Below, in pieces: positions 21,633-56,089 of a stretch of 64,000 nt of DNA. Position 1 is the first letter of the stretch. Each line of letters begins with the position of its first letter. The position numbers and the translations under genes are program-made. The notes under the pieces were generated by a model. It had not been told where the DNA came from. It worked only from the letters and a program-made list of their open reading frames with translations, and did not search any database. The stretch is from Agrobacterium tumefaciens (GTDB lineage Bacteria; Pseudomonadota; Alphaproteobacteria; Rhizobiales; Rhizobiaceae). The stretch covers positions 2,636,001 through 2,700,000 of the forward strand of contig CP048469.1 in the NCBI GenBank assembly GCA_025559845.1, in the 5' to 3' direction.

Positions 21633-21713
21633 GGTCCCCTCCGGGCAAACGCCTTTTCGTTAAACTGACTGACTTGTCTGGTACCGGTCGGAACTGATGT
21701 CTCCAGTCCCGGC

Positions 21714-24805: not shown

Positions 24806-24923
24806 TCGCCTGCTCTGTTATTACACGAAATTCTACAGTGGCCGGCGCGTCGCAAGCAGAGCCGCATGAAAGCGTCAGCCCAAAGCCAGGCGCGCTCATA
24901 CCATTGTCAGCACCACGCCATTC

Positions 24924-26519
24924 TCAGTTGGCGGGATGGGGCTCATCATCGAGAGTGCTGTCCGGCACCATGTTGAGATCGAAGACTGGCAGGCCCGCTT
25001 CGACGGAAATGATGTCGAGGAGCGTGTCTGCGGTAAAGGCTTTCGGCGCGACAGCCAAGTTCCGCTCGCAACTGCGCTGACGGGTGACGACAATCGTGCT
25101 TTCTTTTGCAGCACCGTTGTAAAGCGACAGAACCTCTCCTTCGCTCGGCGCAATACTGGCCATCGGCACCAGATGGCGTACGAAACCATTGCGTATGATA
25201 TCGATTTTGCCCGACGATATCGCCCAGTTCTCCCAATATCCCTCAGGAACGCGCAACGCGATCATGGCGTTGCTGCGCAAGGTGACTGTGAACACCGAGA
25301 GATCACCCTGATCACTCAGTAGTCGCACCTTGCCCCAGCCATAAAGCTGTTCGCGTGTGGCACGCGATTCCGGCATCTTGTTCTGCTTCAGCAGATTGAC
25401 GGCATCCTTGACCTTCTGGGCCTGTGACATCTTGGCGACCAGTACCGCATCGTCATCGTCGATTACGATCAGGTCTTCCAGCCCGATCAGCACAACCTTC
25501 CTGCCACCGCGGGCATAGGCAAGCGTGTTGCTGGAGCCAATCGACACCACCGGTCCGGACAAGGCATTGCCGTTTTCGTCCTTGTTGCGATCGATTTCAT
25601 GCAGGGCCGAAAGAGAACCAATATCGGACCACCCGATACCCTCGCACCGCACAACCGCGCCACGCGCAGTCCTCTCCATGATCGCCGTATCGACCGGAAC
25701 ATCCGCAGGGGCTGCGCGGAACGCCAATTCTTCGAGCATCACGGCCGGTACGTCGGCGAACATATCGACGGTGGCTTTTTCAAACGCCTCCTCAGCCGCC
25801 TGCAGGGTTTCGGGCGCATGCCGCGCCAACTCTTCCAGCATGACGCCAGCCCGGAACATGAAGATCCCGGCGTTCCAGCAGAACCCTTCCTCGACGTAAC
25901 GTTTTGCATTCTCGAGCGAAGGTTTTTCCAGAAAGTCTCCAGCGCTGATGGCGAACCCTCTGACCTCACCGTCAATTTCAAGCGCCTCACCAGGACGTAT
26001 GTAACCGAAACCCGTCTCGGGGTGCTCCGGTTTGATACCGAAAGTCACGATGCGATCGGCAAAACGTGCGACAGGCAAGGCGGCTGCCACTGTCTTGTTG
26101 AACAATGCAGGTTCCGCGATGATGTGGTCGGAAGGTGCCACGAGCAGCACGGCATTGCTTCCTGCCGCATCCATCCGTGAAATGGTGACCGTCAGCGCCG
26201 CGATCGCTGCCGCAGTGCCCTGCATCGACGGTTCGACGATAAGCCCATCAACGGCAAATCCACCGCTGGCGACCTGCTCTTCCGCATGAACCAGTGTGTC
26301 ACGTGCACACATCAGCCACGGCAGACTGTAACCAGGCACCGCGAAACGGCGCAGCGCCTGCTGGAAAAAGCTGTCCTGCCCGTCACCACCCAGCGTGAGA
26401 AACTGCTTCGGTTTGTTCGAGCGGGAGAGAGGCCAAAGCCGCGTACCGGAACCGCCGATCATGATGGCAGGAACGATCCGGATATTTTCCTCTGAAACAG
26501 CGGTCAAAACCTGACGCAT
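24924..26519 (-). CDS. algA: mannose-1-phosphate guanylyltransferase (AlgA/ManC), C-terminal isomerase half degenerate
   Basis: 531 residues. The nucleotidyltransferase domain is intact: GGSGTRLWPLSRSNKPKQFL near residues 22-41, APSDHII, GYIRPGE and the FLEKPS block. It makes GDP-mannose for AlgD. Bifunctional AlgA proteins carry a C-terminal cupin isomerase with a QxHxHRxEHW metal motif; here the aligned region reads IALRVPEGYWENWAISSGK with no histidines, so isomerase activity is doubtful. The protein is also about 50 residues longer than usual. The start has GAGGAAG 4 nt upstream. It follows algD by 56 bp. Confidence 0.9.
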   Translation of the reverse strand: MRQVLTAVSEENIRIVPAIMIGGSGTRLWPLSRSNKPKQFLTLGGDGQDSFFQQALRRFAVPGYSLPWLMCARDTLVHAEEQVASGGFAVDGLIVEPSMQGTAAAIAALTVTISRMDAAGSNAVLLVAPSDHIIAEPALFNKTVAAALPVARFADRIVTFGIKPEHPETGFGYIRPGEALEIDGEVRGFAISAGDFLEKPSLENAKRYVEEGFCWNAGIFMFRAGVMLEELARHAPETLQAAEEAFEKATVDMFADVPAVMLEELAFRAAPADVPVDTAIMERTARGAVVRCEGIGWSDIGSLSALHEIDRNKDENGNALSGPVVSIGSSNTLAYARGGRKVVLIGLEDLIVIDDDDAVLVAKMSQAQKVKDAVNLLKQNKMPESRATREQLYGWGKVRLLSDQGDLSVFTVTLRSNAMIALRVPEGYWENWAISSGKIDIIRNGFVRHLVPMASIAPSEGEVLSLYNGAAKESTIVVTRQRSCERNLAVAPKAFTADTLLDIISVEAGLPVFDLNMVPDSTLDDEPHPAN

Positions 26520-26537
26520 GTCGCTTCCTCATAACTC

Positions 26538-26553
26538 ATAAAATATATTTTAT
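26538..26553. promoter_or_regulatory. 16-bp AT palindrome between algD and algA
   Basis: ATAAAATATATTTTAT is a perfect 16-bp palindrome in the 56-bp algD-algA gap, just after a terminator-like hairpin and about 20 nt before the algA start. It could be a regulator-binding site or contain a -10 element for a separate algA promoter. No protein can be assigned. Confidence 0.4.
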
Positions 26554-26554
26554 A

Positions 26555-26577
26555 AAAATGGGAGGCCTGACGGCCTC
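26555..26577 (-). terminator. terminator-like hairpin at the algD stop codon
   Basis: On the minus strand GAGGCC-GTCA-GGCCTC (26562-26577) overlaps the algD stop and is followed by CCATTTTTATAAAA. A 6-bp GC-rich stem with a T-run fits a weak Rho-independent terminator or attenuator separating algD from algA. Confidence 0.5.
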
Positions 26578-27916
26578 ACCAGCAAAGGCCGTGATAAACG
26601 ATCTGGCCACTTCTGTTGGGCACTTCGACGCGTGCCAGATCCACGACGACCAGCGGTTTGCCCGCCGCTTCGATCGCGCCCGTCAGACCGGCATATTTGT
26701 GACCGACCACGACGATATCTGCATTATCAATGACATCATTGATTGATGGGCGTACACGCGGGGCGATATGGCGAAGATAGTTGCGGCCTTCACTTTCATC
26801 TTGAACAACATTTGGATCAAAGATCGAGACGTCTTTGCCGTTGCCAATGAAGTTCTCGACAAGGCTTAGCATCGGGCTCTCCCGCATATCATCGGTATCG
26901 GTCTTGAAGGTGATACCGATAAAGCCAATGCGATCCTTGCGCGCGTCATTGATCAGCTGCTTGGCGCGATCAATCTGGACCTGGTTTGCCGCCTTTGCGG
27001 CATCGAGCATCGGCGTCGCAACATTCATCCGGCGTCCGAAGGCCGAAAGCGCACGCAAGTCCTTCGGCAGGCATGAGCCGCCATAGGCAAATCCAGGCTT
27101 CATGTACGCCTTGGAAATGTTCAGATGCGTATCGGCACAGACAACATCCATGACGACATGACTGTCGATGCCTTTCGCCTTGCAGAGATTACCAACCTCG
27201 TTGGCGAAGCTGATTTTCACCGCATGCCAGCAGTTGTTGACGTATTTGACAATTTCGGCACTGCGCATGGGAATGACATGCGGGACAACGCTGATATGCG
27301 CGACCATTGCCTTGAGAACATCGATGGAGCGCGTATCGTCGCCGTATTGACCGAAAACAATGGCGCCTGGCTTGTAATAATCCGCGATCGCTGAGCTCTC
27401 ACGCAGGAATTCAGGATAATAGGCAACGCCGAAGTCCACCCCGGCAATCTTTCCAGATGCTTCCTCAAGCGCCGGAATGACAATTTCCTCCATCGTTCCA
27501 GGCAGAATTGTCGAACGCATGACAACAACGTGGAATTCAGTCTTGCGGCGCAAGGCACGGCCGATCTCGACCGAAACCTGACGAACGTAGTCTGTGTTCA
27601 GCGTGCCGTCGAGAAGGCTGGGTGTACCGACGCAGCAGAGCGACACGTTTGTGTTTTCGACAGCGTCTTCCGCCGAGGTCGTCGCCGTCAGCATGCCGTT
27701 CAGATTGGCTTTTTCCAGAAATTCGGCAAGGTCGGGCTCGATAATCGGCGCCTCGCCACGGGCAAGGCACGAAACCTTGAAGCTATCGGGATCAACCGCC
27801 ACAACACGGAAACCGTCGTTGCTCAGACATGCGGCTGAAACACAGCCCACATAACCGGCCCCGAAAACACTGACCCTAAGACCCATTGCACTGACGTTAA
27901 TATCAATTTTGGTCAT
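26576..27916 (-). CDS. algD: GDP-mannose 6-dehydrogenase (AlgD)
   Basis: 446 residues. Rossmann motif FGAGYVGCVSAACL lies at the N-terminus, the catalytic Cys is C282 in FAYGGSCLPKDLRAL, and the UDPGDH C-terminal domain begins near IGFIGITFKTDTDDMRESPM. The active-site stretch matches AlgD rather than UDP-glucose dehydrogenases. It oxidises GDP-mannose to GDP-mannuronate, the alginate precursor and committed step. The ATG at 27916 has a G-rich sequence 5 nt upstream; an internal Met (27886) is less likely. It heads the leftward algD-algA group and is divergent from a second algL across an AT-rich gap. Confidence 0.95.
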   Translation of the reverse strand: MTKIDINVSAMGLRVSVFGAGYVGCVSAACLSNDGFRVVAVDPDSFKVSCLARGEAPIIEPDLAEFLEKANLNGMLTATTSAEDAVENTNVSLCCVGTPSLLDGTLNTDYVRQVSVEIGRALRRKTEFHVVVMRSTILPGTMEEIVIPALEEASGKIAGVDFGVAYYPEFLRESSAIADYYKPGAIVFGQYGDDTRSIDVLKAMVAHISVVPHVIPMRSAEIVKYVNNCWHAVKISFANEVGNLCKAKGIDSHVVMDVVCADTHLNISKAYMKPGFAYGGSCLPKDLRALSAFGRRMNVATPMLDAAKAANQVQIDRAKQLINDARKDRIGFIGITFKTDTDDMRESPMLSLVENFIGNGKDVSIFDPNVVQDESEGRNYLRHIAPRVRPSINDVIDNADIVVVGHKYAGLTGAIEAAGKPLVVVDLARVEVPNRSGQIVYHGLCW

Positions 27917-28455
27917 ATGAACCCCCGAAAGCGGCTAAGCAGGACACTCAAAAAACTTGAAAAAAATTCTGCGAATTCAAAAGGCAAACCCCTTCCAGCA
28001 TGGAAAGAGGTAAAGCTCGAAAGGCATGGCAAGATCGGGCCCGATGAGGCCGCAGCATATGAAATTATATTTTCTGGGACGCCTGTCCGAACTCCAGGGA
28101 GAAAACGGCGGCAGGCGCAAGAGCATAACAATGTATCTTAAGCTGCACGAAACACGGCATCTGCCTAAAAACCGGCAATCGCCCAATTCAAAAAAATATA
28201 CATGCAAAGCAAAAATCACGGACGACAAACGCAAACTCTTGTCGACGCCCAATTAATTACAAATATATTAAACAGGAAGCGATTATTACAGTCAATTAAT
28301 ATTTGAAAAGAAATACAAAAACTTTACGAAACTTAAACAATACTTCAAACAATTTCACAGGCCGTTGCTTTCAGGCATCACCCGGCCTGTAGCATTAACC
28401 CGACGTTTCCTTCGATTTGCTTCAATGTTCACCTACCGTTGTCGGGAAGTGAGCC
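27917..28455. promoter_or_regulatory. 539-bp AT-rich region between algD and the second algL
   Basis: This gap lies between divergent genes and must contain the algD promoter and probably that of the plus-strand algL. Composition is markedly AT-rich, especially 28240-28340. A 74-codon plus-strand reading frame starts at 27917 (basic, no recognisable family, no clear ribosome site) and is not called a gene. AT-rich, T-A-step-rich DNA of this kind would suit a MucR/Ros-type regulator, but no specific site is claimed. Confidence 0.5.
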
Positions 28456-29496
28456 GTGTTGCGTTTTGCGTTGATTGCCTTTTCTGCATCCTTTCTGTTC
28501 AGCTTGCCCATGCTGGGCGTTGACCGTGATTCAGCCCGAAGTGTTGCAGTCGACAAAACCTTGAATGACAGCGCGGCACCTCAAAGCCTCCCCACCGTCC
28601 AGGTGAAACTGGAAAGATCCGGAGGCACTGCGGTCGCGAGCGGTGCAAAAACCAGGGATATGAGCTGTGGTGTCGCCATTTCTCAAATCGAAACGCCGCC
28701 CAGAAAAATTGCAACGATATCGAAATATCGCACGACCGAGATCACCGGGGACGCTGAAGGCGAAAACGTCTCGCACATCGCCGTATTCAAGCCGATCTGG
28801 CGCTCCATTCTTGAGCTTGAAACCATCGAAACACGCTTTGGAGCTGACTGCGCGATGCGTGTTCTGTCTCAATGGGCCACGTCGCAAGCGCTGACCGATG
28901 CCACAACCGCTGACGCCAATCTGACGCGTGGGCGTGTGCTCGCCGAGATATCCGGATTGATCGCAGCCTGGGAAGTTACCGCTGATCGCGAAAAGCAAGA
29001 CGTTGTTGTTCAATGGCTGAGCCAGATGGCGGACGACACGATGCTGTTTTTCGACAACGAGGCCGGGCCCAAGAGTGCCCGCAACAATCATCGTTATTGG
29101 GCAGCGCTTGCTCTTGCTTCCATCGGCAGCCTGAGTGGGGACCAAGCCAAGATCGAGTGGGCGCGCCAGTCCTATCGCATCGGAGTCTGCCAGGTAACGG
29201 AAGACGGGACCCTGCCACTTGAAATGCAACGGGGCGCTCTCGCCCGCAATTACCATCTCTACGCATTTCGTCCATTGGCGGGCACGTATGTTGCCCTGCG
29301 AAAAATTGGCCAGCCGCTCGATGACATCTGCTCCGGATCGCTGCAGAGACTGGAAAATGCGACGTTGAATGGTATCGATGATGCCGCGTTGTTTGAGGCT
29401 GCGACGACAAAACACCAAACCGAGCCGCCACGCGAGGAGACCTATCCAAGCCATTTGCGGCTGGAAACGCTGACACGCAAACTGCGGGAAGGATGA
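28456..29496 (+). CDS. algL: alginate lyase, polysaccharide lyase family 5 (second AlgL)
   Basis: 346 residues from a GTG start preceded by GGGAAG. A hydrophobic signal (LRFALIAFSASFLFSLPMLG) indicates export. PL5 catalytic residues are visible: N211-H212 in NNHRYW, then R259 and Y266 in RGALARNYHLYAFRPL. The His-to-Arg spacing (47) and Arg-to-Tyr spacing (7) equal those I recall for Pseudomonas AlgL (N171, H172, R219, Y226). Cleaves poly-mannuronate by beta-elimination in the periplasm. It is the only plus-strand gene inside the locus, convergent with the short Sel1 gene and divergent from algD. Confidence 0.9.
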   Translation: MLRFALIAFSASFLFSLPMLGVDRDSARSVAVDKTLNDSAAPQSLPTVQVKLERSGGTAVASGAKTRDMSCGVAISQIETPPRKIATISKYRTTEITGDAEGENVSHIAVFKPIWRSILELETIETRFGADCAMRVLSQWATSQALTDATTADANLTRGRVLAEISGLIAAWEVTADREKQDVVVQWLSQMADDTMLFFDNEAGPKSARNNHRYWAALALASIGSLSGDQAKIEWARQSYRIGVCQVTEDGTLPLEMQRGALARNYHLYAFRPLAGTYVALRKIGQPLDDICSGSLQRLENATLNGIDDAALFEAATTKHQTEPPREETYPSHLRLETLTRKLREG

Positions 29497-29517
29497 CGCG
29501 ACCACCATCATCGTCGT

Positions 29518-30816
29518 TTACCTTGTCATGCTGTCAAGCGAGATGAGAGCGGAGCGGGCCAGCAGATATCCGCCATCCGCCGACTTCGTCAGCCAATATT
29601 TGGCCTGCCCGATATCTTTGACGACGCCGGTTGCCTGGGCATACATCAGGCCGAGCAGATATTGTGCTTCGCTGTCTCCTTGTGTGGCAGCCAGTTTTCG
29701 ATAGGCCGCAGCCTTTTCAAGCGAAGGGCTGGTGCCGCGCCCCACGAAATAAGCCTCGGAAACAGCGCGAATGGCATCCATGTTACCCCTGTCGGCATAG
29801 GGCTCGAGGATTTTCAGGATAGCGTCGTGCATGGCAACAGGTACACCTGACCGGTTCAGTGCCTTGGCCAGAAAAGGAACGGCCTTTTCGTCACCGGCCC
29901 TGGCGGCTTCCGCGAACATGTCGACACCTTTCTGGATATCCGCCGGCTCGTTGCTGTTCCAAAGCGTACGGGCAATCTTGCCCTCCTCGGACACCGGACT
30001 GCTCTGCGGTGCAGTGGCGATAATGGCCTTCGCCTTTTCCCGTGCCGCCAGGCTGAAGCGCGTGTCGGACAGTTTGTTGGCCGCCGAAAGGCTTCTTTTC
30101 GGTGCAAGATCGATTGCCGAGAGCAGAAGCTGTTCGCTGCGCGCCGTCGCATCGGGATCTGTGCTTTGCATCAGCAGAGATGCGGTTTCGATATATCGCC
30201 CTGCACGACGTTCCGGCTGCAACCTGTCCAACATGGCAATTGCCTCGTTCACGTTCCGCGTCACGCCGCGCCCTTCCAGCAAGGCGAGAGAGGTTTCTTC
30301 AATGCCACGCAGATTGCCGACCAATGCAGCCCACCTGTACCACTTGTAGGCAAGTGCATCATTTTTAGGAATATCAGTGCCGAGTTGCTGCATGCGCGCC
30401 CACGCCACGACACAGCTGGATGAGCCGCGCATCGCCTCCTTCGCCAAGAGGTTCATGACCTTTCCAGCATTCGGCCCAAATGAATAATCGTTGTTGACAA
30501 TCCCCTTGGCCAGAAGGCGTACGGCCTCGCGATTTCTGGGTGCCGCAGCCATCAGCAAGGAAAACCCGAGATCAGCATTGCGAAGGTCACGACGAGGATC
30601 ACTCAGAGCAGCCGTGGCAATTTCCAGTTGCTTGGCAAGCGGGAGTTTTTTCGCAGCTTCAAGCGAAGGCAGCCGCACCGTCTGCGCAGGCTGTGGATTA
30701 GCCACCACTGCAGCACGTGCGGTTGGAACAGGCACATTGCTTGCTTTTCCCGCGGCCATGGCCACCGTCGCGACCGGCAAAACCGTAATCAAGGCCAATA
30801 TGACAGAAGGTTTCAT
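29518..30816 (-). CDS. Sel1-repeat periplasmic protein, AlgK-like (432 aa)
   Basis: 432 residues from the ATG at 30814-30816 (MKPSVILAL), with AGGA 9 nt upstream; a longer reading upstream is an artefact. A signal peptide ends near AMAAG. Sel1/TPR-like repeats are clear toward the C-terminus (YFVGRGTSPSLEKAAAYRKL, QYLLGLMYAQATGVVKDIGQ). In size it matches Pseudomonas AlgK, a periplasmic TPR-like lipoprotein that helps localise the export porin, but no lipobox cysteine is seen. Last gene of the long leftward alg operon. Confidence 0.85.
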   Translation of the reverse strand: MKPSVILALITVLPVATVAMAAGKASNVPVPTARAAVVANPQPAQTVRLPSLEAAKKLPLAKQLEIATAALSDPRRDLRNADLGFSLLMAAAPRNREAVRLLAKGIVNNDYSFGPNAGKVMNLLAKEAMRGSSSCVVAWARMQQLGTDIPKNDALAYKWYRWAALVGNLRGIEETSLALLEGRGVTRNVNEAIAMLDRLQPERRAGRYIETASLLMQSTDPDATARSEQLLLSAIDLAPKRSLSAANKLSDTRFSLAAREKAKAIIATAPQSSPVSEEGKIARTLWNSNEPADIQKGVDMFAEAARAGDEKAVPFLAKALNRSGVPVAMHDAILKILEPYADRGNMDAIRAVSEAYFVGRGTSPSLEKAAAYRKLAATQGDSEAQYLLGLMYAQATGVVKDIGQAKYWLTKSADGGYLLARSALISLDSMTR

Positions 30817-30859
30817 CGAACGATCCTTTCTCCGGCATCGGGTGCGTTCGGAGGTTGTG

Positions 30860-33745
30860 CTATTGGGTGATGGTGGCGGCCTTGCCCAGCCACCGTTCCG
30901 CTTCCTGCGGATCAGGCGGGACGCCATAACCAATCTGCAATGCGATGGCGTAAGGTTCGAAAGCCTTGGGGTAACCTGAGATCGCCGCCCGTGCGAGCCA
31001 TCCAGTGCTATCCGCCGCCGAGAGCGGAAAACCGCTGGTGCCGGTTGCGAAGGCATCGGCAACCATGACCATGGCGGCACCGTCGCCGGTTTCGGCAGCT
31101 TTCATCATCCACACTCTGGCTTTTTCGGAATAAGCACCGTCCTCTTTCGCCATGATCGAAAGAATACGCGCCAGGGCCTGAATCGCATTGCCGGAACCAC
31201 CCTTTGCGGCATCCTCAAGGGCTGGCAATGCTTCAACGATGATTGGATTGGTGGATGTTTCGGGCGCCTCGTCTCCCACCAATTGCTCTACAAGGGTCTT
31301 CAAGGCTCCATCGTCTCCGGCTCGAACCGCAGCGAGCAACCATTGTGTCGCTTTACCAGGGTCGGCATGGGGCGAGAGAAGGAACATCCGGCCGGACTCA
31401 CGCATGGCCTCCACCTTGCCGGCCTCGGCAGATTTGACCATCGTGGTCAGCGCCAGTTCCGGGTTGAGAACACCGCGTTTGTTGTCGTTCAGAAGGTTGG
31501 CGAGCTGATAAAGCGTGCTTGCATCGTCCGTTTCTGAGGCGAGAGCCCGATCGACCAGTTCTCGCGTCTGCCTGGCGTAATTCGCATCGCGTGATATCGC
31601 ATCGGCCAAAGCAACCTCGTCCTTCGCGCTGCACAGCGGCTGTTTCAAGGCGAGGTCAAACATGGTGCGGCGAGACTTCTGGTCACCCGCACGTTCGGCG
31701 GTCTTCAGTATAGCTCGGATGTCACCGTCATCCACGGCCTGCCCTAGCCAGATATCCGCCGTTCTGCCACCGCCTTTTTTGGCATCGACACCGAGATCGG
31801 CAAGCTGGATCATGGAAGCAGTATGCCCCAGACGCGCAGCCTCAACGAGAAGTTTGATCCCTTCGTCCGGTTGAGGCGCAAGACCTGCCGCACCCTTCAG
31901 ATAAAGCTTGGCGAGGTCGTAACGAACCGAGGTGTCGCCACTCGACAGGCCATCCTTCAGAAGATCAACAGCTGCCTTCACATTTGTCTTGTCAGCATTT
32001 TCAGAAGAAAGCTGAAGTCTGGCCAAAAGAACGAGCGCCTGACCACGGGCCTGGCCTGCTGCCAATGCTTTTTCGTACCACTGGCCGGCCTCACGCGTAT
32101 CGATATTGGTACCAACGCCATCGCGGTATGCCAGTGACAAAAGCACCATCGCGCGCCGGTCGCCGAGCGCGGCCGCGCGACGAATATTGCGGAAGTACAT
32201 CAGTTTTCCGTCATCGCCGGCTTGCTCCGTGAGGGCCTGCTTGGCGACAGCAATCAGGCTGGGACGATTCCCCCCAGCGGCCGCTCTTTCCTGCCAACGG
32301 CGTCCAATGTCGGCGTTGCGCTCAACACCAATGCCGCAGCTATAGGCGTCTGACAGCGTTGCCATAGCCTCGCTCAAGCCGTTATTGGCGGCACGCCGCA
32401 ATATTGCGATCGGATTGACGCTTTTTGAAATGTTGTGCGAGCTGTCGACCATCAACTGGTAGAGCTCAAGAGCGGCGGTATCAGACCCCAAAGCCACGGC
32501 ACGTGTGAGATAATCCACGGCCTTTTCGGTATTGCGTGCCGTTCCCGTACCACTGGCATAGGCGCTGCCCAATTGCTTCAGGACATCGGTATCGACAACG
32601 GGATTGCGCGCAGCCTGTTCGAGGTAGCCAACCATGGCGGCGTAGTTCGGTTTTCCACCAAAATCCCCATGCGAAATCTGCGCGAGAAGCTCGAAGGCTC
32701 TGACATTGCCACGCTCGGCTTCCTGTTTCAGCGCCTGTGTCGCCTTTGGCAGTGCATCCTTGAGATCGAGATTCGCCAGCAGCAGACGGGCGAGCGAAAT
32801 ACGGCTACCCGCGTGTCCCCTTGCAGCGGCCGTTTCCAACAATTCCACCGCCTTGTTGCGGTCCACAGGCACACCATCGCCAATCATGTAGCGTTGCGAC
32901 AGGCGTTCAACCGCGACGAAATTCCCCGCTTTTGCTGCGGCCATCAACCATTTTGCGGAAAGCTGCGGATTGAAGAGACCGAATTCTTCATTGGCATAGA
33001 TGCCGGAAAACAGGGTGAGAACGTCGCACTCACCGGCACCAAGCGACTGACTAAGCTTGTCGATCGCCTGATTGAAAAGCAGTTGCGGCGCCTCTTCCGA
33101 GGGCGCCAATTCCGGATTGTTTCGATAAAGTCTGGCAAGCAGCAAGGCTGCATCCGGGTCACCGTTCTGAGCGCCCATCTTGAGGTATTTTTCACCCTTC
33201 AGCTTGTCCTGCGGCACCACTTCACCCGTGGCGTAAAGGCGTCCCAGAAAGGTCGCGCCTTCCATAAAGCCACGCGCTATCGCCTCGTCCTGCAGCGCCA
33301 GACCACGGCCGAGATCAGGCGACCCGGATGTCGCATCGAACATCAGACGACCCAAAGTGTGCGAAGCGCGGCCCGCCAGTTCATAATTGGCGTTTTTCAG
33401 ATATTCGAGCATGCGGCGTGCAAGTACCTTGTCGCGTGGCGCGTTACCGGTCCCACCAATGTAGGCCTGCGCGTCCAGCAACATGTCGTCAAGATTGCTC
33501 TTTACCGGCCCACCGTCCCATTTGCTCCAGTCGTAGGAAAGGTTGCGCTGCTGCGCTCTGACCTTGCAGATCGGCGCGTAATCAAAATCGGGGCTTGGCA
33601 TGAGCCCATCCTGCAACGGCAAGGCCACCTGCGCCTGCGCGGGCTGCGCGGCAAAAACGGCCGCAGCAATCAACAGCCCCGCGCTGAGCACTTTCTTTCG
33701 GTGCCGGCTGAACAGGAACGCTTTTCCGATTTTGAATATTGCCAT
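30860..33745 (-). CDS. large Sel1-repeat periplasmic protein, AlgK-related (961 aa)
   Basis: About 961 residues. The start at 33745 (MAIFKIGKAF) is preferred over 33763 because GAGAGGGG lies at a better distance. A signal peptide ends at PAQAQ, with no lipobox Cys. The mature protein is a long alpha-solenoid of Sel1-like repeats (YASGTGTARNTEKAVDYLTR, YRDGVGTNIDTREAGQWYEK). It is twice the length of known AlgK. Located between algF-like and the shorter Sel1 gene. Predicted periplasmic scaffold for the polymer export or modification complex (inferred). Confidence 0.83.
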   Translation of the reverse strand: MAIFKIGKAFLFSRHRKKVLSAGLLIAAAVFAAQPAQAQVALPLQDGLMPSPDFDYAPICKVRAQQRNLSYDWSKWDGGPVKSNLDDMLLDAQAYIGGTGNAPRDKVLARRMLEYLKNANYELAGRASHTLGRLMFDATSGSPDLGRGLALQDEAIARGFMEGATFLGRLYATGEVVPQDKLKGEKYLKMGAQNGDPDAALLLARLYRNNPELAPSEEAPQLLFNQAIDKLSQSLGAGECDVLTLFSGIYANEEFGLFNPQLSAKWLMAAAKAGNFVAVERLSQRYMIGDGVPVDRNKAVELLETAAARGHAGSRISLARLLLANLDLKDALPKATQALKQEAERGNVRAFELLAQISHGDFGGKPNYAAMVGYLEQAARNPVVDTDVLKQLGSAYASGTGTARNTEKAVDYLTRAVALGSDTAALELYQLMVDSSHNISKSVNPIAILRRAANNGLSEAMATLSDAYSCGIGVERNADIGRRWQERAAAGGNRPSLIAVAKQALTEQAGDDGKLMYFRNIRRAAALGDRRAMVLLSLAYRDGVGTNIDTREAGQWYEKALAAGQARGQALVLLARLQLSSENADKTNVKAAVDLLKDGLSSGDTSVRYDLAKLYLKGAAGLAPQPDEGIKLLVEAARLGHTASMIQLADLGVDAKKGGGRTADIWLGQAVDDGDIRAILKTAERAGDQKSRRTMFDLALKQPLCSAKDEVALADAISRDANYARQTRELVDRALASETDDASTLYQLANLLNDNKRGVLNPELALTTMVKSAEAGKVEAMRESGRMFLLSPHADPGKATQWLLAAVRAGDDGALKTLVEQLVGDEAPETSTNPIIVEALPALEDAAKGGSGNAIQALARILSIMAKEDGAYSEKARVWMMKAAETGDGAAMVMVADAFATGTSGFPLSAADSTGWLARAAISGYPKAFEPYAIALQIGYGVPPDPQEAERWLGKAATITQ

Positions 33746-33777
33746 GGACCTGACCCCTCTCATCTTCCGACCTTCGT

Positions 33778-34449
33778 TCAGGCTTTCGCCGCAACGGATG
33801 TGAGAACGATATCGTTCGGCCCGCTGCCCAGAACAAAGATGGACGTAACGGAACGACGTTTCAGCGTTGTCTTTTCGAACGTTTTGGCAATCGCCCCGGC
33901 AATCTCGACATTCAAATCGATGGCAACGGCGTTAACCTCCAGCGAGATACCGCTCATCGGTGACACGGCCTTGATAACGGGCGAGCGTTTGGCGAGCGCG
34001 GTCAGCGAAACCGGTGCGTCAGTCAGATTGTAAAGCGCAAGTGCGCACTTCGCCGGATCGGCCGTAAAGGCATCGGCAACCACCACCGGCTCTTTTCCAG
34101 CAGCACCAGAAAGGATGGTCAGGTATTGCCCTTGCCCGACCGGAAGCGCCATGGATTGTCCTTTGACCAGCAGGGTGTAGTCTCCAGGCGCGCGTGCGAC
34201 ATAGTCGGAGACGCCGCTTGCGGAAACTTTGAAAGGCTTCTCGCCGATGGTTGCCGTGGCGGCGGCCGCGGGATCGGACGCAGCGATACGCACAAAGCTC
34301 CAGTCTTTCGGAATATCCGCGTCATAAATGCCGGCATCGTCGCCGGCAGCAAAGGCAGACGGGCTGACTGCGAACGTGCCGGAAACGGCAGCAACCAGAT
34401 GAATGAAACGGCGGCGATCCGCGTTGAAAACAATCTCATCCGAAAACAT
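33778..34449 (-). CDS. algF: AlgF-like alginate O-acetylation accessory protein
   Basis: 223 residues from the ATG at 34449, 5 bp after algX. A signal-like N-terminus (IHLVAAVSGTFAVSPSAFAA) precedes a mature start DAGIYDADIPKDWSFVRIAA that resembles AlgF (family length about 216). The remainder is beta-rich, ending with SIFVLGSGPNDIVLTSV. AlgF is a periplasmic partner of the AlgI/AlgJ/AlgX acetylation machinery. Assigned from the N-terminal pattern plus position; sequence conservation in this family is low. Confidence 0.75.
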   Translation of the reverse strand: MFSDEIVFNADRRRFIHLVAAVSGTFAVSPSAFAAGDDAGIYDADIPKDWSFVRIAASDPAAAATATIGEKPFKVSASGVSDYVARAPGDYTLLVKGQSMALPVGQGQYLTILSGAAGKEPVVVADAFTADPAKCALALYNLTDAPVSLTALAKRSPVIKAVSPMSGISLEVNAVAIDLNVEIAGAIAKTFEKTTLKRRSVTSIFVLGSGPNDIVLTSVAAKA

Positions 34450-34454
34450 CTTCT

Positions 34455-42900: not shown

Positions 42901-43765
42901 CTTTCTTCAGCGCGTTGGCGCTCTGAGCCAGAATACTCTCTGCGGCGGCCGCACTGACGGGCTTACCTTCGATCTGCTTGCCTGCAAGGAGACGCAAAGC
43001 CAGATCATAGCGGGCATAGCCGCGCATACGCGTCGGCCACATGCGCGAGATAGCCTTGTCGGCGATGGCGGACGACAGATTGGGATCAATGATCGTCGCG
43101 GTCTGCGCCAAGGTATTCAACGCCGCATTTTTCGCCGTCTCGTCCTTGATGGACACCACACGGTCGGCCGCTTTTTCCACCAGGCTGATGGCGCTGGATT
43201 TGTCGCCCGCCGCAACGACAGCCGCATATCCACTGAGAGCGGCAACCTGCAGTTCGGGCAGGGAAAGAGCATCAATCAGCTCCATCATGCGGACCCGCAT
43301 CTCGGTTCTCTGTTGCGGATCGGCAATGCGGCCCGCCATCTGCTGCTGCAATGCGGAGATACTGGCGGAAACCAGGCTGTCGGCATCGATGCCATCGGAG
43401 GCAAGCGTGTTCAACGCGGTTTTCGCCTCAGCGGCGTCTGCCGCCGCCCAGGATTTCAGCTGGGTCAAGCCAGCACGTGCCGCGTCGAGAAACGACAGGC
43501 GCTGCCTGGCATCTGACGCACCATCGGCCTTCAGCACGTTTGCAGAAATGTCAGACAGGACGGCATCGACCTTGCCTGCCGCCGGGGGCTGCGGTGCTGC
43601 AGCCTGTTGGGCAAAAGCAACCGACGAAACAGCAGACCAGTTGCCGGTCGGAAACACGAGGCAGACCGACAACGCCAATGCGCGCAATGATCCCTGTACT
43701 ACCGTCACATTCGGTAGCCACTGGCAGTGGGGACGTGATGAGCGGGTGATGTCGCGTGTCATCAT
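39932..43765 (-). CDS. algG: mannuronan C5-epimerase AlgG fused to a long N-terminal helical-repeat region
   Basis: 1277 residues; Pseudomonas AlgG has about 540. A signal region ends near VAFAQ (residue 52). Residues 60 to about 740 are predicted all-alpha, Ala/Glu/Lys-rich repeats of TPR/HEAT character (for example AKLAEYLPESALRAELDFTL). The C-terminal 500 or so residues form the right-handed beta-helix with the catalytic DPHD motif at 1011-1014 (YAIDPHDRSHRLL) and HGIIVSREVNYSWIVGNVS. It converts mannuronate to guluronate in the nascent polymer in the periplasm. No frameshift is needed to join the two parts. It overlaps the 64-aa gene and algL by ATGA. Confidence 0.92.
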   Translation of the reverse strand: MMTRDITRSSRPHCQWLPNVTVVQGSLRALALSVCLVFPTGNWSAVSSVAFAQQAAAPQPPAAGKVDAVLSDISANVLKADGASDARQRLSFLDAARAGLTQLKSWAAADAAEAKTALNTLASDGIDADSLVSASISALQQQMAGRIADPQQRTEMRVRMMELIDALSLPELQVAALSGYAAVVAAGDKSSAISLVEKAADRVVSIKDETAKNAALNTLAQTATIIDPNLSSAIADKAISRMWPTRMRGYARYDLALRLLAGKQIEGKPVSAAAAESILAQSANALKKGDLETALLWALAINPEDSEARKKAVGNVADLALKEGKLEWMPVLTTSLADNSDQEDLIEKIVKQRIEAGRGLDAAKLAEYLPESALRAELDFTLATVFAKNDLTKMADASYANGNSVLARLSGAERGVAVVAAAESAISLERLDDAVALVPELRTVRDGGNMLANLAKSLADADKVKDAENLLPYLQGGNDRDKAVSGIARVKVREGDIEAGKNAIEIIVNSRDKGRVQSELARTLAKKGEMDDAKSVALSIQDTEFRIEALLRLASVANDNKASDFDVLVDEAVKVAAGEDKKDNRDKGYLKIVEALTDARKTDAAKQLVDRIDDEKIKARAAGIIGKRAALEGAGDRALTYLASFKGANGDEALKAEVLVAAAANPAMLKFASVQAATIKDHMLRVRTARSIAEANFRSLDVRNLGWGKGSPVDYRVMQQAPKPEGSAPIAPAAAFSDGRLTLARQDGKMSLPEGYTYPDISVSVKTVREGMPLPQPGHAAVTLANLSPYSDKFMEDLAAGNTGLSFAAEAQGIPYPRIIVIQSGVYTLGSLASELDKSSGFPLVTRENDIVTLRAPVLVAEGATLILSGQEAATYRLSATAGSFISVAGTLYVQDTTVTSWDEATGTPRYSDKEKRHVFRPYIIGWSNSRLMIGGSVLDSLGYAAPKSFGLAFSAGPKTVAQQISEPRAPTGIVADNFFHNFEYGFYSYEADEVSLVGNEYRDNVLYAIDPHDRSHRLLIALNTTYDTKAKHGIIVSREVNYSWIVGNVSHTNTGSGFMIDRDSVDNFIYANAAFDNKQDGLTFFESSCNLAVGNRFFDNKRAGIKIRNSWEVGVHENVLENNAQDAIHGYISNLRASPANALRDFEFDPYLPLTTFAASGNRIHGNGGGIKVDGASGFSLSGNDYLNQVGRLIDGDGRAMEGHMLRFNERESVLITSTVCRPKRPEAYHCRFRDSGFFNGDGQSAIFAEDALTDTCTNVSNSVQYENFNGTGGRS

Positions 43766-43956
43766 TCTTCCTTCGTCAGGTCAATGTCGTAAAGCGGCTC
43801 GATACTTGCGTGCAGAGAATTTGAGGCAGGCAACAGAAGTCCATCAGAGACATCGACCTTGTCCTGCCCATGAATTTCCTGCGATTGGCATGCGATGCGG
43901 CGGCCTATGGTGGCCCTGCGGCGGCGGGAAGCGCGCTGCCTCCCGCATCCCGTCAT
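43762..43956 (-). CDS. small unknown protein between alg44 and algG (64 aa)
   Basis: 64 codons filling an otherwise empty 187-bp gap. Its ATG overlaps the alg44 stop (ATGA) and its stop overlaps the algG ATG (ATGA), the coupling seen across the rest of this operon; the GAAGGAAGA site for algG lies in its last codons. The N-terminal third is Arg-rich (RQRASRRRRATIGRR), the rest acidic (LYDIDLTKEE). No signal peptide, membrane segment or family recognised. Confidence 0.6.
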   Translation of the reverse strand: MTGCGRQRASRRRRATIGRRIACQSQEIHGQDKVDVSDGLLLPASNSLHASIEPLYDIDLTKEE

Positions 43957-45038
43957 TTCGGCAAGAATTTGCTCTTCAGGTCCGCAAACCGCTGGTTCAG
44001 ACCGAACCAGGGTCCGTTGTCGAAACGAACGGAAGCGGGTGTGCCGATCGCGGACGAAAGATCATGTCCACCGAGATCGATCCTGACCGCGACCCGATCG
44101 CTCGTCGCAGCGGACTGTTCGCTGACCTTCGGCAGTTGAGATACGGTTACGTCATGCAGAACCGTGCCTTGCGGCAAGTCCACACTGACGTGCGGCGCGT
44201 TGTAGAGCGCCATCAGATGCGAGCGGTCCACCATTGCCACGACATGCGGCTTGGCATCCGCATTGCGAAGCCCCAACACCTGAGCCCCCACCTTGACCTG
44301 TGTGTCGACTGCAGGACCTGTCGACTCGGCAACGCAATCGCATGACGCAACCACTGACGTGCTTTGCCCGCTTTCGGTCAGAACGGTCAAAATCCGTTCG
44401 CCGCTTTTAACAGGTCCGGTCACAATATTGGTGATAATGCCGTTGGCTGGCGCCAGAACTGGTGTTGTGTCAACCGTCACCACGGCGCTGTCGGCTTCGA
44501 AGACCCAAAGTCGCTGATAAAGACTGCTTGCCAGAAAAGCGGCGAGCGCCAGCGAAAGGGCCAAAGTGGCAACAATACCAACAGCCTGACGAACCTTGCT
44601 TGCGCCGGGAGCGGCCTCGGCTGATTTTCGCGGCCGCAGCTTCACGTCTCCCGAGGCACGCTTGGCGAAGTCCAGAAGATCGTTGCCTTCAACGATTTCA
44701 CCGCTGATGTAGGAATCGTGAATGTAACGCAACATGCGTTGTGCCGCAGCAGACGTATCGACATATTTGAAACCGGTACGCCCGGTTTCGGCGCTGGAAT
44801 GGCGAACTTCCGCTTTCACAGGCAGAAGCACATCGAAGCCATCAAGCGGGATCTGCAACTGCAGGGGCAGCACTTTTCCTTCTTCGAACGTTGCGCTGCC
44901 CGTTGCAACTCCCACGCCACCCAAGGACCAGTCGATTGACGAATATCTGTGCTGATCAATGACGCATTTTAGCGGTAACTTGTAGCGCGCATGCTGACGT
45001 TGTTCATCCGCTTCGAAACTCACGACGCTCATATTCAT
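43953..45038 (-). CDS. alg44: Alg44, PilZ-domain c-di-GMP receptor of alginate polymerase
   Basis: 361 residues. The N-terminal PilZ domain has both c-di-GMP motifs: R14xxxR18 (RQHAR) and D36xS38xxG41 (DWSLGG). A membrane segment near 160-190 (AVGIVATLALSLALAAFLASS) leads to a periplasmic HlyD-like barrel (VDTTPVLAPANGIITNIV). This is the Alg44 layout. It activates Alg8 on c-di-GMP binding. GAAGGAG precedes the start, 18 bp after alg8. Confidence 0.93.
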   Translation of the reverse strand: MNMSVVSFEADEQRQHARYKLPLKCVIDQHRYSSIDWSLGGVGVATGSATFEEGKVLPLQLQIPLDGFDVLLPVKAEVRHSSAETGRTGFKYVDTSAAAQRMLRYIHDSYISGEIVEGNDLLDFAKRASGDVKLRPRKSAEAAPGASKVRQAVGIVATLALSLALAAFLASSLYQRLWVFEADSAVVTVDTTPVLAPANGIITNIVTGPVKSGERILTVLTESGQSTSVVASCDCVAESTGPAVDTQVKVGAQVLGLRNADAKPHVVAMVDRSHLMALYNAPHVSVDLPQGTVLHDVTVSQLPKVSEQSAATSDRVAVRIDLGGHDLSSAIGTPASVRFDNGPWFGLNQRFADLKSKFLPK

Positions 45039-45056
45039 TTTGGGCTCCTTCGCGGG

Positions 45057-46712
45057 TCAACGCATACCGAAAATCGCGGTCGTCGCCCCAATGCCTGGGA
45101 CTGACAATTGGCCGACGAGCAACGATATGAGGGTTACAAACAGGGTAATCGATAAAACATGCATGTATGTGGAAGAGGCGTTTTTCAACGCGACGGCCCG
45201 GCCCGCACCACTGGAGGACAGCGTTGTTTTCTGCCGCGTCCACTTCTGGCGATCGAGGTGAAAGAAAATATAGGTTTTGATGATCGAGCCAAAGACCTGA
45301 TTGAAATAGATAAAAAATGGATAGAAGATCGACACCCGTGGACGGGAATTGAATAACATCAATGTCATGATGTAGCGGGTCAGCAGAACCCAGGCGATAT
45401 AGGCCGGAAAAATGAACGGGTTATCGAACAGCCCGATCAGAATGACCATCACCAGACCGGCAAGCGATGTCCACATCGAGATGCGTTGATCGAAAATCGT
45501 CCACCAGGTGAAATAACCGATACGCCACGGACCGAGTGCCAATGCACGGCTGTTGGTGCGTAACATGTTGCCGAACCAGCGCGTCATCAATTGCGCTGCA
45601 GCCTGGAAAAATCCGGATGTCGGCGGATCTTCAACCGTTGCGACGCTAACGTCAGGCAGATAAAGCATCTGATAATTGTTGCGCAGCAGCCAGTACCAGC
45701 TCGACTTGTCGTCACCGGTGAGAAACTTCAACCTGCCAAGACGCCAATGCTCGATATAGTCCGACTCCACCTGACGGATAAACTCGGGATTGGTGATGAC
45801 GGACGCGCGGAACATCGACATCCGGCCGGTCAGCGTCAGCACACGCCTGGAAAGGCCGTTGGACGACATCAGAATGTGGCGTTGTGCAAAACGCAGCGAA
45901 TACCAGATGTGAAATGATGATTTCCCACGGACCCGCGACGTCTCGTCCGTTGTCAACGCACCAACCCGACCATCCGCGAAGAAACCGGCACACCGGTCGA
46001 CAAGATTTTCAGGCACGATGGAATCGCCATCGATCACGGCAACCACATCGTCGGCACGAGGCTCCAGCTTGGAGACCGCCCGGAAAGCATAGGCCAATGC
46101 ATCACGTTTGCCGCTGCCATTGATGCGGGTGATGACCAACCGGACACTGGTTTTTTCGCCACAGATAAGTCGGTGCATGGAACGGATCAGGCGCTGATCC
46201 GACATTTCTACGATCGACGCGACAACAGTCGCTCCACCGCGAGACGAAAGAGCGGCGCGGAATGCGGCACGGTAGACTTCCGCCGTTGTGTCGCCGTCGA
46301 TACGAAAACTCGTTACGATGAGATAGGCATGTGGCGCCTGGCCGTTTTCCGCACTCTGCAGAAGATGGCGATCCGCACGGAGACGCATTTTGGGGAAAAC
46401 GACGCTGCGGTAAATGTTGGACCGTACAAAATGCAAAATACCCCAGAAATATCGCCATACGGCCAGAGCGCCCAGACCAAACAGGAGGCCGGTGTTCGCG
46501 CCAAAAAGAACGCCTTCCGGAACGACAACAATCAGACTGGCGAGCGCCAGCACAAACAGCACGTGCGCTGGAAGGCTTTCACTCCAATAAACGATAGCGG
46601 ATTGCTCTCCCGCCTGAGAAACAGGGACTGTTGATAATCTATCGACAGGCAATACTTCACCAGGGAGACCGAGCACTCTCTTTTCGAGATTGCGTCTCAT
46701 GGCATAATCCAT
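45057..46712 (-). CDS. alg8: Alg8, mannuronan polymerase (GT2 glycosyltransferase)
   Basis: About 551 residues. Two N-terminal membrane segments precede a cytoplasmic GT2 domain with D228-G-D230 (VIDGDS), TDETS, TGDDKSSWYW and the processive motif Q374xxR378W379 (QLMTRW), then C-terminal membrane segments. This is the inner-membrane polymerase using GDP-mannuronate. The ATG at 46712 is used; a second in-frame ATG lies at 46700 and no strong ribosome site is visible. An AT-rich 130-bp gap separates it from algJ, so it may have its own promoter. Confidence 0.93.
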   Translation of the reverse strand: MDYAMRRNLEKRVLGLPGEVLPVDRLSTVPVSQAGEQSAIVYWSESLPAHVLFVLALASLIVVVPEGVLFGANTGLLFGLGALAVWRYFWGILHFVRSNIYRSVVFPKMRLRADRHLLQSAENGQAPHAYLIVTSFRIDGDTTAEVYRAAFRAALSSRGGATVVASIVEMSDQRLIRSMHRLICGEKTSVRLVITRINGSGKRDALAYAFRAVSKLEPRADDVVAVIDGDSIVPENLVDRCAGFFADGRVGALTTDETSRVRGKSSFHIWYSLRFAQRHILMSSNGLSRRVLTLTGRMSMFRASVITNPEFIRQVESDYIEHWRLGRLKFLTGDDKSSWYWLLRNNYQMLYLPDVSVATVEDPPTSGFFQAAAQLMTRWFGNMLRTNSRALALGPWRIGYFTWWTIFDQRISMWTSLAGLVMVILIGLFDNPFIFPAYIAWVLLTRYIMTLMLFNSRPRVSIFYPFFIYFNQVFGSIIKTYIFFHLDRQKWTRQKTTLSSSGAGRAVALKNASSTYMHVLSITLFVTLISLLVGQLSVPGIGATTAIFGMR

Positions 46713-46845
46713 CAATTAAATATTTTTTTGCACCAGCATGCAATTCTAAGTATAAATCTGAATATATCCAATATATTTCTTTATTATAAGCTAAAATTGG
46801 AATTATTCAAACTATAAATTCAAAAATACAAATAATTATTATATT
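46713..46845 (-). promoter_or_regulatory. AT-rich gap upstream of alg8
   Basis: About 130 bp of strongly AT-rich DNA (runs such as AATATATCCAATATATTT) between the algJ stop and the alg8 start, in contrast to the few-bp or overlapping junctions elsewhere in the operon. It probably holds an internal promoter and a regulator-binding region. No specific boxes are assigned. Confidence 0.5.
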
Positions 46846-47916
46846 CTATGCAGCATCATCCAAGTAACGAACTGGAATTTCCCACAATACGACCTTCGGC
46901 ACGGCCTGGGCATCCAAAGTCTTGAGAAACTCCTGCATGGGGGCGAAAGGCCCCTTCCCCTCTCGGGCGTAGTTGAGAACATCGACCTCGCATATCGTTT
47001 TCAGCTGGTCCTCAAAAGACCACAGCGGGTTTGCGCTGTAGCTGGTTCCAACAAGCACAACCTGGTCCATCACTTGCGCTTCACCGTCACTACCCGCAAA
47101 CAGCGCATCGGCATCATCGACCTTGGCCGCAGCCGATATTGGCTGGATAATATCAGCGCTTTCCTGAGAACCGGACAGCATCCAGCCTGCATCGACAAAC
47201 TTCGCAAGGTCGCCAACGTGGCGCACATTATCTTGCGGCACACTTTCGAAAGCGGTTTTCATCAGCTGGTCCCGACCGGGAATTGCCGAACAGGCCGCCT
47301 TGGCGGCAAGGCCACTGCCTTTGACGGTCCAGTGTGTATCCGCCCGCAGGAAAAGTTCTTCCGGCTTTGCAGCTCCGAACGTCGCTGCGACATCCGCAGC
47401 CGGAATGCCTCTTTCTTTAAGAAAAGCCAGAAACCTGGGGTAAAGATCGGCGTTGCTATCAGGCAGGACGTTACCCCCCAGTTCGCCGGCAACGACCTGC
47501 GCTTTGGGCGGGACTGGCACAATCACCAGAGTGCTGCCTTTTTCGGCCAAAGTGGCACGGATATCCGTGATCGTCTGGAAAGATCTATCCAGGTTGGCCT
47601 CCGATGTGCGGCCCCAGGCAAACTCCTCCGCCGTGAAAAGCCAGCCATTGCGACCAACGACAGCACCCTTCCGCGCCTCTCCGAAAATACCGAGAGAAAC
47701 TGCATTGAAGAGTTCGACAGCAAAACCGCTGAACGGCAGTTCCCGCTCATAACCTTCTTCAAACCGGCTGGTCATCTTGCCGGTCCACACATCGGCAAGC
47801 GCGTCCACCCTTATATCCTCCTCCGGAAGATCGACCACATAGTTGGCGGTGATTCCGGCACCGGCCAGCAGAAGGAAAAGAACCGACGCGGTTGAAAGCA
47901 AACGTGGTGAGATCAT
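46846..47916 (-). CDS. algJ: alginate O-acetylation protein AlgJ
   Basis: 356 residues from the ATG at 47916, which has AGGGAG 8 nt upstream; the GTG at 47925 is too close to that site. One N-terminal membrane segment (TASVLFLLLAGAGITANYVV) anchors a periplasmic SGNH domain with DTHW (LRADTHWTVKG) and GTSYS (LVGTSYSANPLW). AlgJ-type proteins lack the C-terminal CBM of AlgX and relay acetyl groups from AlgI. It follows algI by 12 bp. Confidence 0.9.
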   Translation of the reverse strand: MISPRLLSTASVLFLLLAGAGITANYVVDLPEEDIRVDALADVWTGKMTSRFEEGYERELPFSGFAVELFNAVSLGIFGEARKGAVVGRNGWLFTAEEFAWGRTSEANLDRSFQTITDIRATLAEKGSTLVIVPVPPKAQVVAGELGGNVLPDSNADLYPRFLAFLKERGIPAADVAATFGAAKPEELFLRADTHWTVKGSGLAAKAACSAIPGRDQLMKTAFESVPQDNVRHVGDLAKFVDAGWMLSGSQESADIIQPISAAAKVDDADALFAGSDGEAQVMDQVVLVGTSYSANPLWSFEDQLKTICEVDVLNYAREGKGPFAPMQEFLKTLDAQAVPKVVLWEIPVRYLDDAA

Positions 47917-47928
47917 GCGTCGCACTCC

Positions 47929-49359
47929 CTAAAACTGAAAATAGAGGAAGGGTGAGTCGTTGTCGGCCGTCAGCTTCAGTATCGACACCATACCGAGAAA
48001 GCACACGATGCCCGTTGCCGCCAAGGCTACACCCCCAGTCGACGGGGAAAGTTGCATATGGATCAGTCGCTCAGCCGGAAAAGTCCGATTAAACCATGGT
48101 TCTATGAACACGACCACAACACCCACAGCCAGGGATGCAAGGGCGAAGTTCTTGATTTGCCAAGCGATATCCGGCTGCATGGCCAAACCGTTAAGTCCGA
48201 TCATGCCACGATACATGTCGAGCGCACTGTGCACGTCGAGTGACCGAAACATGACCCAGCCAAGCATCACCAGCAACAGGGTGCCACCCAAGGCGACGAC
48301 AGAGCGTTTATCCGATGGCTTGATACCGAGCAGGCGTTCCAAAGCCAGCAGGCCACCATGCCACACACCCCACAGCACGAAGGTCCAGTTTGCACCATGC
48401 CACAGTCCACCAAGAACCATGGTGATGAACAGATTGAAGTAAGTCCTGAATGTCCCGAGCCTGTTGCCACCGAGTGGAATGTATAGGTAGTCGCGCAGCC
48501 AGGCCGAGAGGCTGAGATGCCAGCGACGCCAGAATTCCGTAATTGACCGCGATACATAGGGACAATCGAAATTCTCGATAAAACGGAACCCCATCATCAT
48601 GCCCAATCCCACAGCCATGCTGGAATAGCCGGAGAAGTCGAAATAGAGCTGGATTGAATATGCGATCGTTCCAAGCCAGGCTTCGGCAAGGGTTGGATCG
48701 GCCTTGGCAAAGATGGCATCGGCAATAGGTGCCACGGAATCCGCAATCAGCACTTTTTTTGCAAGCCCGGCAAAGAAACGAATGCCGCCTTCGGCAAAAA
48801 GCTCCAGGGAATGCTGCCTATACATGAACTGATGGGCGAGATCCTTGTATCGCAACACCGGACCGGCGACCAACTGAGGAAACAAAGCCTTGAATGCAGC
48901 GAAGTCAAAGAAATTCTGCGCCGGCGGAGCGTCTTCTCGATAGATATCGATAAGATATGAAATCGCCTGAAATATATAAAAGGATATTCCGATCGGCAGC
49001 AGGATACGCGCATGCCACGATGTGAATGGCGCGCCGCCATTGAACAAGTCGGCAAGACTGTCCATGAAGAAATTACAATATTTGAAGTAACCGAGCACAA
49101 GCAATGGCCCGGTAATGGCAACAACCAGCAGTCTTTTGCGCGACTGTGCCGTCCGCTCTACATAGATCAGCTTTCCGAAGATGTAACTCCAGAGAGTGAC
49201 CAGGAAGAGCAGGGCAAGATAGTCCATCCTCCACCACCCATAGAATAGATAGGAGAACAGAAGTATAACAAGGGATTTATACCGAAAAGGAACGGAGAAA
49301 TACACACCGAACGCAATTGGCAAAAACATAAATATGAATAAAACGGATGAAAAAACCAT
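47929..49359 (-). CDS. algI: alginate O-acetyltransferase AlgI (MBOAT family)
   Basis: 476-residue multi-spanning membrane protein. The MBOAT motif FWRRWHLSLSAWLRDYLYIP and the conserved His in GGLWHGANWTFVLWG are intact, and the N-terminus has the AlgI pattern (MVFSSVLFIFMFLPI). It passes acetyl groups across the inner membrane for transfer by AlgJ/AlgX. First gene of the leftward alg operon; unlike Pseudomonas, algI-algJ lead rather than trail alg8-alg44. Confidence 0.94.
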   Translation of the reverse strand: MVFSSVLFIFMFLPIAFGVYFSVPFRYKSLVILLFSYLFYGWWRMDYLALLFLVTLWSYIFGKLIYVERTAQSRKRLLVVAITGPLLVLGYFKYCNFFMDSLADLFNGGAPFTSWHARILLPIGISFYIFQAISYLIDIYREDAPPAQNFFDFAAFKALFPQLVAGPVLRYKDLAHQFMYRQHSLELFAEGGIRFFAGLAKKVLIADSVAPIADAIFAKADPTLAEAWLGTIAYSIQLYFDFSGYSSMAVGLGMMMGFRFIENFDCPYVSRSITEFWRRWHLSLSAWLRDYLYIPLGGNRLGTFRTYFNLFITMVLGGLWHGANWTFVLWGVWHGGLLALERLLGIKPSDKRSVVALGGTLLLVMLGWVMFRSLDVHSALDMYRGMIGLNGLAMQPDIAWQIKNFALASLAVGVVVVFIEPWFNRTFPAERLIHMQLSPSTGGVALAATGIVCFLGMVSILKLTADNDSPFLYFQF

Positions 49360-56085: not shown

Positions 56086-56089
56086 GACG

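Follow-up and report, generated by a model that had tools for sequence, protein, structure and literature searches.

A probable mobile block for acetylated alginate biosynthesis, lacking AlgE, in Agrobacterium tumefaciens

Alginate is usually regarded as a product of Pseudomonas and Azotobacter. A cluster of alginate-type genes in Agrobacterium tumefaciens raises the question of which polymer such a locus would make and how this polymer would leave the cell. The stretch of DNA analyzed here (the window) comprises 64,000 nt, positions 2636001–2700000 of contig CP048469.1, from a 6.3-Mb genome in four contigs. An original prediction, made from the sequence alone, had described a near-complete alginate-type locus at window positions 24924–49359, possibly of a distinct lineage; both the alginate-type character and the distinct lineage are supported by the results below. 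We put at roughly 80% the probability that the locus is a mobile block, complete but for the pore, for biosynthesis of O-acetylated alginate, accompanied by a secreted esterase. A search of the open-licence literature brought up no account of alginate systems in Agrobacterium or Rhizobium, consistent with the earlier remark that none had been described for agrobacteria; database entries for Rhizobium relatives already carry the automatic names "glycosyltransferase Alg8" or "mannuronan C-5-epimerase".

Alginate biosynthesis genes

Six loci of family f44 with the order D-8-44-K-E-G-X-L-I-J-F-A were used as a yardstick (in L128 AlgL follows AlgF, and AlgF is unlisted in L131). Family f44 is probably Pseudomonadaceae, judging from the AlgX proteins of two of its loci, which match solved AlgX at 5.2e-255 and 8.7e-254. 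Family or profile matches to Alg8, Alg44, AlgG, two AlgL proteins, AlgX, AlgJ, AlgI, AlgF, AlgD, and AlgA were all recovered where they had been predicted, chance matching is excluded, and the catalytic motifs agree with those of the six Pseudomonas-type operons. Genes of the block lie on the minus strand unless stated otherwise.

For precursor supply and polymerization, AlgD (26576–27916), a GDP-mannose 6-dehydrogenase with the motif GGSCLPKD, finds its best solved match in GDP-mannose dehydrogenase (1mfz, 1.4e-107), with a UDP-glucose dehydrogenase next at 3.6e-64, and is accompanied by an AlgA-like GDP-mannose pyrophosphorylase (24924–26519; PF00483, 3.5e-37). Alg8 (45057–46715; PF13641, 2.4e-34), assigned as a mannuronan synthase of glycosyltransferase family GT2 from its profile match, homologues, tree position, and motifs, retains DGD, TGDDKSSW, and RW; no credible relative was found for it among solved structures (best E 0.91). 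For Alg44 (43953–45038; PF07238, 9.9e-09), the PilZ-type cyclic di-GMP (c-di-GMP) receptor and copolymerase, solved matches were exclusively Alg44 (4xrn and 4rt0), the best being 4xrn at 6.3e-04 over the PilZ domain. Its PilZ motifs RxxxR and DxSxGG are retained, and passages of a published study implicate Alg44 R17 and R21 in c-di-GMP binding (PMC8461298).

The epimerase is encoded as a fusion of 1277 residues (39932–43765), in which a helical-repeat half, a putative scaffold domain, is joined to an AlgG C5-epimerase domain. Four solved chains were matched, all AlgG-type poly(beta-D-mannuronate) C5-epimerases (best 9.4e-68), and the motifs YxxDPHD and SRE are retained; excerpts of PMC4444821 implicate the DPHD histidine in catalysis, together with a tyrosine close by. 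When the helical half was searched for (7994 candidates scored), all 15 of the 15 proteins found also carried beta-helix tags, among them proteins annotated as coming from Agrobacterium tumefaciens and from Rhizobium grahamii. Two PL5 alginate lyases are present. AlgL-a (28456–29496, plus strand, divergently oriented; PF05426, 5.3e-25; solved match 4ozv) has the same motifs as Pseudomonas-type AlgL, and AlgL-b (38778–39932; PF05426, 3.2e-15; 7fhz) belongs to a divergent subfamily with NNHRYL and RRGARALWY.

The acetylation set AlgI/J/F/X is complete: AlgI, an MBOAT acetyl carrier (47929–49359; PF03062, 1.1e-25), retains FWRRWH and LWHG; AlgJ, an SGNH O-acetyltransferase (46846–47925; PF16822, 1.7e-60), retains DTHW and GTS; AlgX, the terminal O-acetyltransferase (34455–35843; PF16822, 2e-48), retains D(H/Q)HW and G(S/T)S and aligns with solved AlgX (4knc, 1.2e-48) across 53–422, most of its length; and AlgF lies at 33778–34494 (PF11182, 1.8e-20). 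Where the original prediction had an AlgK-like counterpart, there are three Sel1-repeat proteins (PF08238): Sel1a, of 990 residues (35824–38796; 2e-39), Sel1b, of 967 (30860–33763; 5.7e-34), and Sel1c, of 432 from its likely ATG (29518–30816; 9e-20). Sel1a is the probable AlgK counterpart, and its orthologues are matched by an AlgK–AlgE fusion protein; an AlgK lipoprotein itself was not found in the block, where the three Sel1 proteins stand in its place.

The polymerization, epimerization, acetylation, and lysis enzymes of the Pseudomonas/Azotobacter operon thus have counterparts in the block with the same motifs. The block differs from that operon in having neither AlgE nor an AlgK lipoprotein, in the fusion of AlgG to helical repeats, in its three Sel1 and two AlgL proteins, in the loss of the AlgA isomerase site, and, as had been noted beforehand, in gene order (I-J-8-44-G-Lb-Sel1a-X-F-Sel1b-Sel1c // La // D-A-type I secretion). 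Alginate operons with an altered arrangement, in some cases lacking algKE, have been predicted in environmental bacteria (Bundalovic-Torma et al. 2020, PMC7112194); as far as excerpts of that paper go, deep-sea bacteria rather than Rhizobiales are named, and neither an AlgG fusion nor a secreted esterase is mentioned.

Phylogeny and distribution of Alg8

A quick tree was built from 66 Alg8 proteins and four other GT2 proteins of the same genome; its 65 loci were hand-picked from the best 80 and from survey loci before building, and no row was removed later. The window Alg8 pairs with that of Agrobacterium nepotum, then with Pararhizobium antarcticum, inside a 39-row alphaproteobacterial clade, mostly Rhizobiales and Rhodobacterales (SH-aLRT 99). 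The eight non-alphaproteobacterial rows (seven f44 and one f62, presumed gammaproteobacteria) form a separate, Pseudomonas-type clade (100), which joins Micavibrio types with a short AlgG (98). These Micavibrio-type loci (L046, L050, and L064) are also alphaproteobacterial but have, besides the short AlgG, an AlgK–AlgE fusion in the locus, a class that fits the alginate genes, including algE, noted for a Micavibrionaceae genome in part of PMC9238374.

The tree also bears on whether Alg8 could instead be a synthase of cellulose, curdlan, or another beta-glucan, with the cluster forming a modified glucan system. The combination of GT2 and PilZ, seen here as Pfam matches, is common to glucan systems, but the clade in which Alg8 falls, the GDP-mannose type of AlgD, and the presence of AlgG and AlgL make such an identity extremely improbable. 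Alg8 also stands apart from the four own-genome GT2 proteins, to which phmmer gave no match; these were drawn from seven PF13641 matches and carry no identification as cellulose or curdlan synthase, and their branches are saturated, which leaves the root of the tree unsure.

Within the genus, Alg8 occurs in 7 of 39 genomes. Four carry the window type, namely this genome, a second of the same species, A. nepotum 39/7 (G012), and G027, and three (G018, G019, and G030) carry a second type with an Alg8 47–48% identical to that of the window. The A. nepotum locus (L003) is the best named locus, with an Alg8 93% identical. Relatives of the AlgG fusion were found in 10 of 297 sampled family genomes (8 of 109 genera; A. 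nepotum and G027 are not among the matches listed), as open frames of 1217–1348 residues in nine and split across two contigs in one. In a phylum-wide sample of 398 genomes, 24 had Alg8 at 1e-60, and f44 accounts for 11 of these. The Alg8 contig scan confirmed 579 loci, of which the best 80 were classed by AlgG length: 49 have a long AlgG (at least 1000 residues), 2 an intermediate one, and 4 a short one. In the other 25 nothing matched AlgG at the 150-bit cut; some of these stretches are short and may stop ahead of it. One Rhizobiales locus (L032) includes a phosphomannomutase.

The second locus type has the order D-8-44-A, followed in L154 (G030) by I-J-X-F-Sel1-L; in L078 and L095 a beta-helix gene lies between A and I. 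Its named relatives include A. albertimagni (L080) and R. rosettiformans (L073), and Rhizobium tibeticum has two different Alg8 loci, L016 and L055, one of each type. A protein of the PL7 alginate lyase family lies beside Alg8 in 12 loci (9 in Microvirga), including L011 (6654–7868), and this Microvirga protein, the one scanned, bears RTX repeats. A Nitrospiria metagenome-assembled genome (L077) also has an alg locus, whose AlgG is of intermediate length (821 residues), and gives three PF13372 matches.

Insertion between acvB and telA

The genes lie where they were first reported, but the block itself is larger, its start extending about 7 kb further, to 17963. Comparison of the window with seven empty sites gave homology breakpoints at 17959–17962 and 49887–49911, and together with gene adjacency these define an inserted block of about 32 kb (about 17963–49886) between acvB and the gene for a TelA-type telomere resolvase (49896–51281). 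TelA is present in 38 of 39 genus genomes, and for 30 of these the locus was included in an adjacency count. In the two belonging to the window's species, algI lies beside telA; acvB and telA are together in 27 of the 28 others (within about 0.3 kb in 21, at about 1.2–1.4 kb in 6), with no AcvB match within the stretch examined in the remaining one. In A. nepotum 39/7 and G027, acvB–telA is uninterrupted, with the alg block on a different contig. The block is therefore an insertion, found at different places in different species.

By BLAST, the window and the G027 DNA share two adjoining colinear pieces (17992–24823 and 24924–49462), and the A. nepotum DNA is likewise colinear over 19226–24855 and 24924–49503, the stretch compared having ended within the RTX gene; identity is 80–82% in both. 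The shared block thus takes in the genes for a type I secretion ABC transporter, an HlyD protein, and an RTX protein, which lie downstream of algD–algA in the same orientation, at spacings of no more than about 120 bp. The block proteins are mostly 80–96% identical across the three species, compared with 80–82% for the DNA, a pattern indicative of purifying selection, to which algL-b of G027, lying in two frames, is an exception. Between species the lowest conservation is that of AlgL-a (72–73%). Upstream of algI, a leader (49360–49503, minus strand) is conserved in the three-species alignment, homology ending at 49462 or 49503, and its TTGACT and TATATC-like boxes probably represent a promoter.

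A predicted secreted esterase

The ABC transporter (23024–24805; ABC_tran, 1.6e-24, and ABC_membrane) begins about 120 bp downstream of algA and is followed by the HlyD-type membrane fusion protein (21714–23027; PF13437, 3.6e-19), also inside the conserved block. The third gene (17985–21632; Pfam SASA, Cadherin_4, and HemolysinCabind) encodes an N-terminal SGNH carbohydrate-esterase domain (about residues 1–265), cadherin/VCBS repeats, and RTX repeats; the N-terminal domain has the fold of SGNH acetylesterases, with the motifs GQS, WxQGE, and DxxH. This esterase domain recurs in a relative (P0127) fused to an AlgE-type epimerase. The protein is probably an extracellular alginate O-deacetylase and matrix protein, presumably exported by the adjoining type I pair. 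PsmE of Pseudomonas syringae is likewise a secreted RTX-bearing enzyme whose SGNH deacetylase module acts on extracellular alginate (PMC4444821), a likeness drawn from the P0127 fusion and this published precedent; together with the secreted Azotobacter epimerases, PsmE is among the closest known systems. The block esterase differs from PsmE in having cadherin-like repeats and no epimerase module, and in being encoded within a biosynthesis block.

Export and nature of the polymer

"Near-complete" needs one qualification, which concerns the canonical outer-membrane porin, AlgE. Several observations weigh against the alginate reading or set the block apart from the canonical system. The genome gave no PF13372 (AlgE) match, and a simple pattern scan picked up no lipobox in the three Sel1 proteins, which leaves the export route without its usual components. 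AlgA scores 332 bits against TIGR01479, under the model cut-off of 373, and by motif comparison the phosphomannose-isomerase metal motif is lost from its isomerase half. AlgG likewise scores 284 bits (1.9e-84) against NF038177, under a cut-off of 700, and the AlgL NCBIfam cut-off is not reached. In AlgL-b the His adjacent to the conserved Tyr is lost, and in G027 algL-b lies in two frames (L152 and L153, joined positions 16762–17911) and is broken or misread. AlgF alone is no proof of alginate, since an AlgF-like protein, WssG, occurs in acetylated-cellulose loci, as described in part of PMC10641220.

The missing AlgE and divergent AlgL-b could suit another uronic-acid polymer akin to alginate, such as a heteropolymer containing mannuronate, made by re-used alginate enzymes, as could other Alg8-like loci of the same clade, whose neighbours differ and whose beta-helix protein resembles AlgG less strongly. 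We regard such a polymer as unlikely, because the block has no second glycosyltransferase, AlgG and AlgL-a carry the motifs of alginate enzymes, and a PL7 protein adjoins the Microvirga locus tested. Acetylated alginate is very probably the product, as judged from the sequence. In favour of it we counted family matches, motif identity, the Alg8 tree, three-species conservation, the AlgG model, the PL7 lyase (L011) and phosphomannomutase (L032) of relatives, the esterase–epimerase fusion, the PsmE precedent (PMC4444821), and the Sel1-plus-BBP2_2 pairs described below.

A relict locus, its polymer trapped inside or its genes silent, would account for the lack of AlgE or a linked porin and for the split algL-b of G027. 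However, the window reading frames are intact and the proteins are conserved above the DNA across three species. PF13372 is unmatched in all 7 Alg8-bearing genus genomes, this one included. It is also unmatched in 23 of 27 tested genomes with a long AlgG, so that absence of AlgE is usual in this lineage rather than decay in this strain; we consider a relict quite improbable.

For the pore, the best candidate, at family level only, is PF10082/BBP2_2. In L059 a PF10082 barrel (2.9e-56) follows a Sel1 gene divergent to Alg8, and relatives of this barrel occupy the same position in L051, L063, and L067 (there a contig-end fragment); such pairs beside Alg8 resemble the AlgK–AlgE pairing seen elsewhere. 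Counting against this candidate, the own genome has one PF10082 protein, unlinked to the block, and the family occurs in 39 of 39 genus genomes, with or without alg genes.

In an alginate-producing block, AlgA and AlgD would supply GDP-mannuronate, which Alg8 would polymerize in response to c-di-GMP sensed by Alg44. The chain would be acetylated in the periplasm by AlgI/J/F/X and its M residues epimerized to G by the AlgG domain, while the helical-repeat arm and the three Sel1 proteins, replacing lipoprotein AlgK, may scaffold the chain's path and the AlgL enzymes may remove stray polymer. Exit would be through a non-AlgE outer-membrane porin encoded outside the block, and outside the cell the type I-secreted esterase could bind and partly deacetylate the polymer, like the N-module of PsmE. 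Tentatively, and at somewhat less than even odds, we propose a separate alginate machine in which an epimerase with a helical arm and giant Sel1 proteins replace AlgK, a BBP2_2 or other porin replaces AlgE, and a co-inherited, type I-secreted esterase modifies the polymer beyond the cell, all of it moving as one block between Rhizobiales replicons. As it stands, a plant-associated Agrobacterium very probably has a mobile alginate block that does without the exporter known for this polymer, and the identity of its pore would tell whether polymer export can change porin families. Agrobacterial or rhizobial alginate could play a part in attachment to roots and in surviving drought. For tailoring alginate, the secreted esterase and the epimerase might serve as tools.

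Neighbouring genes

The insertion is flanked by lpiA-like and acvB/VirJ-like genes (13994–17961). Adjoining telA, at 52191–57202, genes for an HlyD protein, a double ABC ATPase, and two ABC-2 permeases form an efflux-type operon, and tRNA, 5S, and 23S rRNA genes lie at 60568–63916 on the minus strand.

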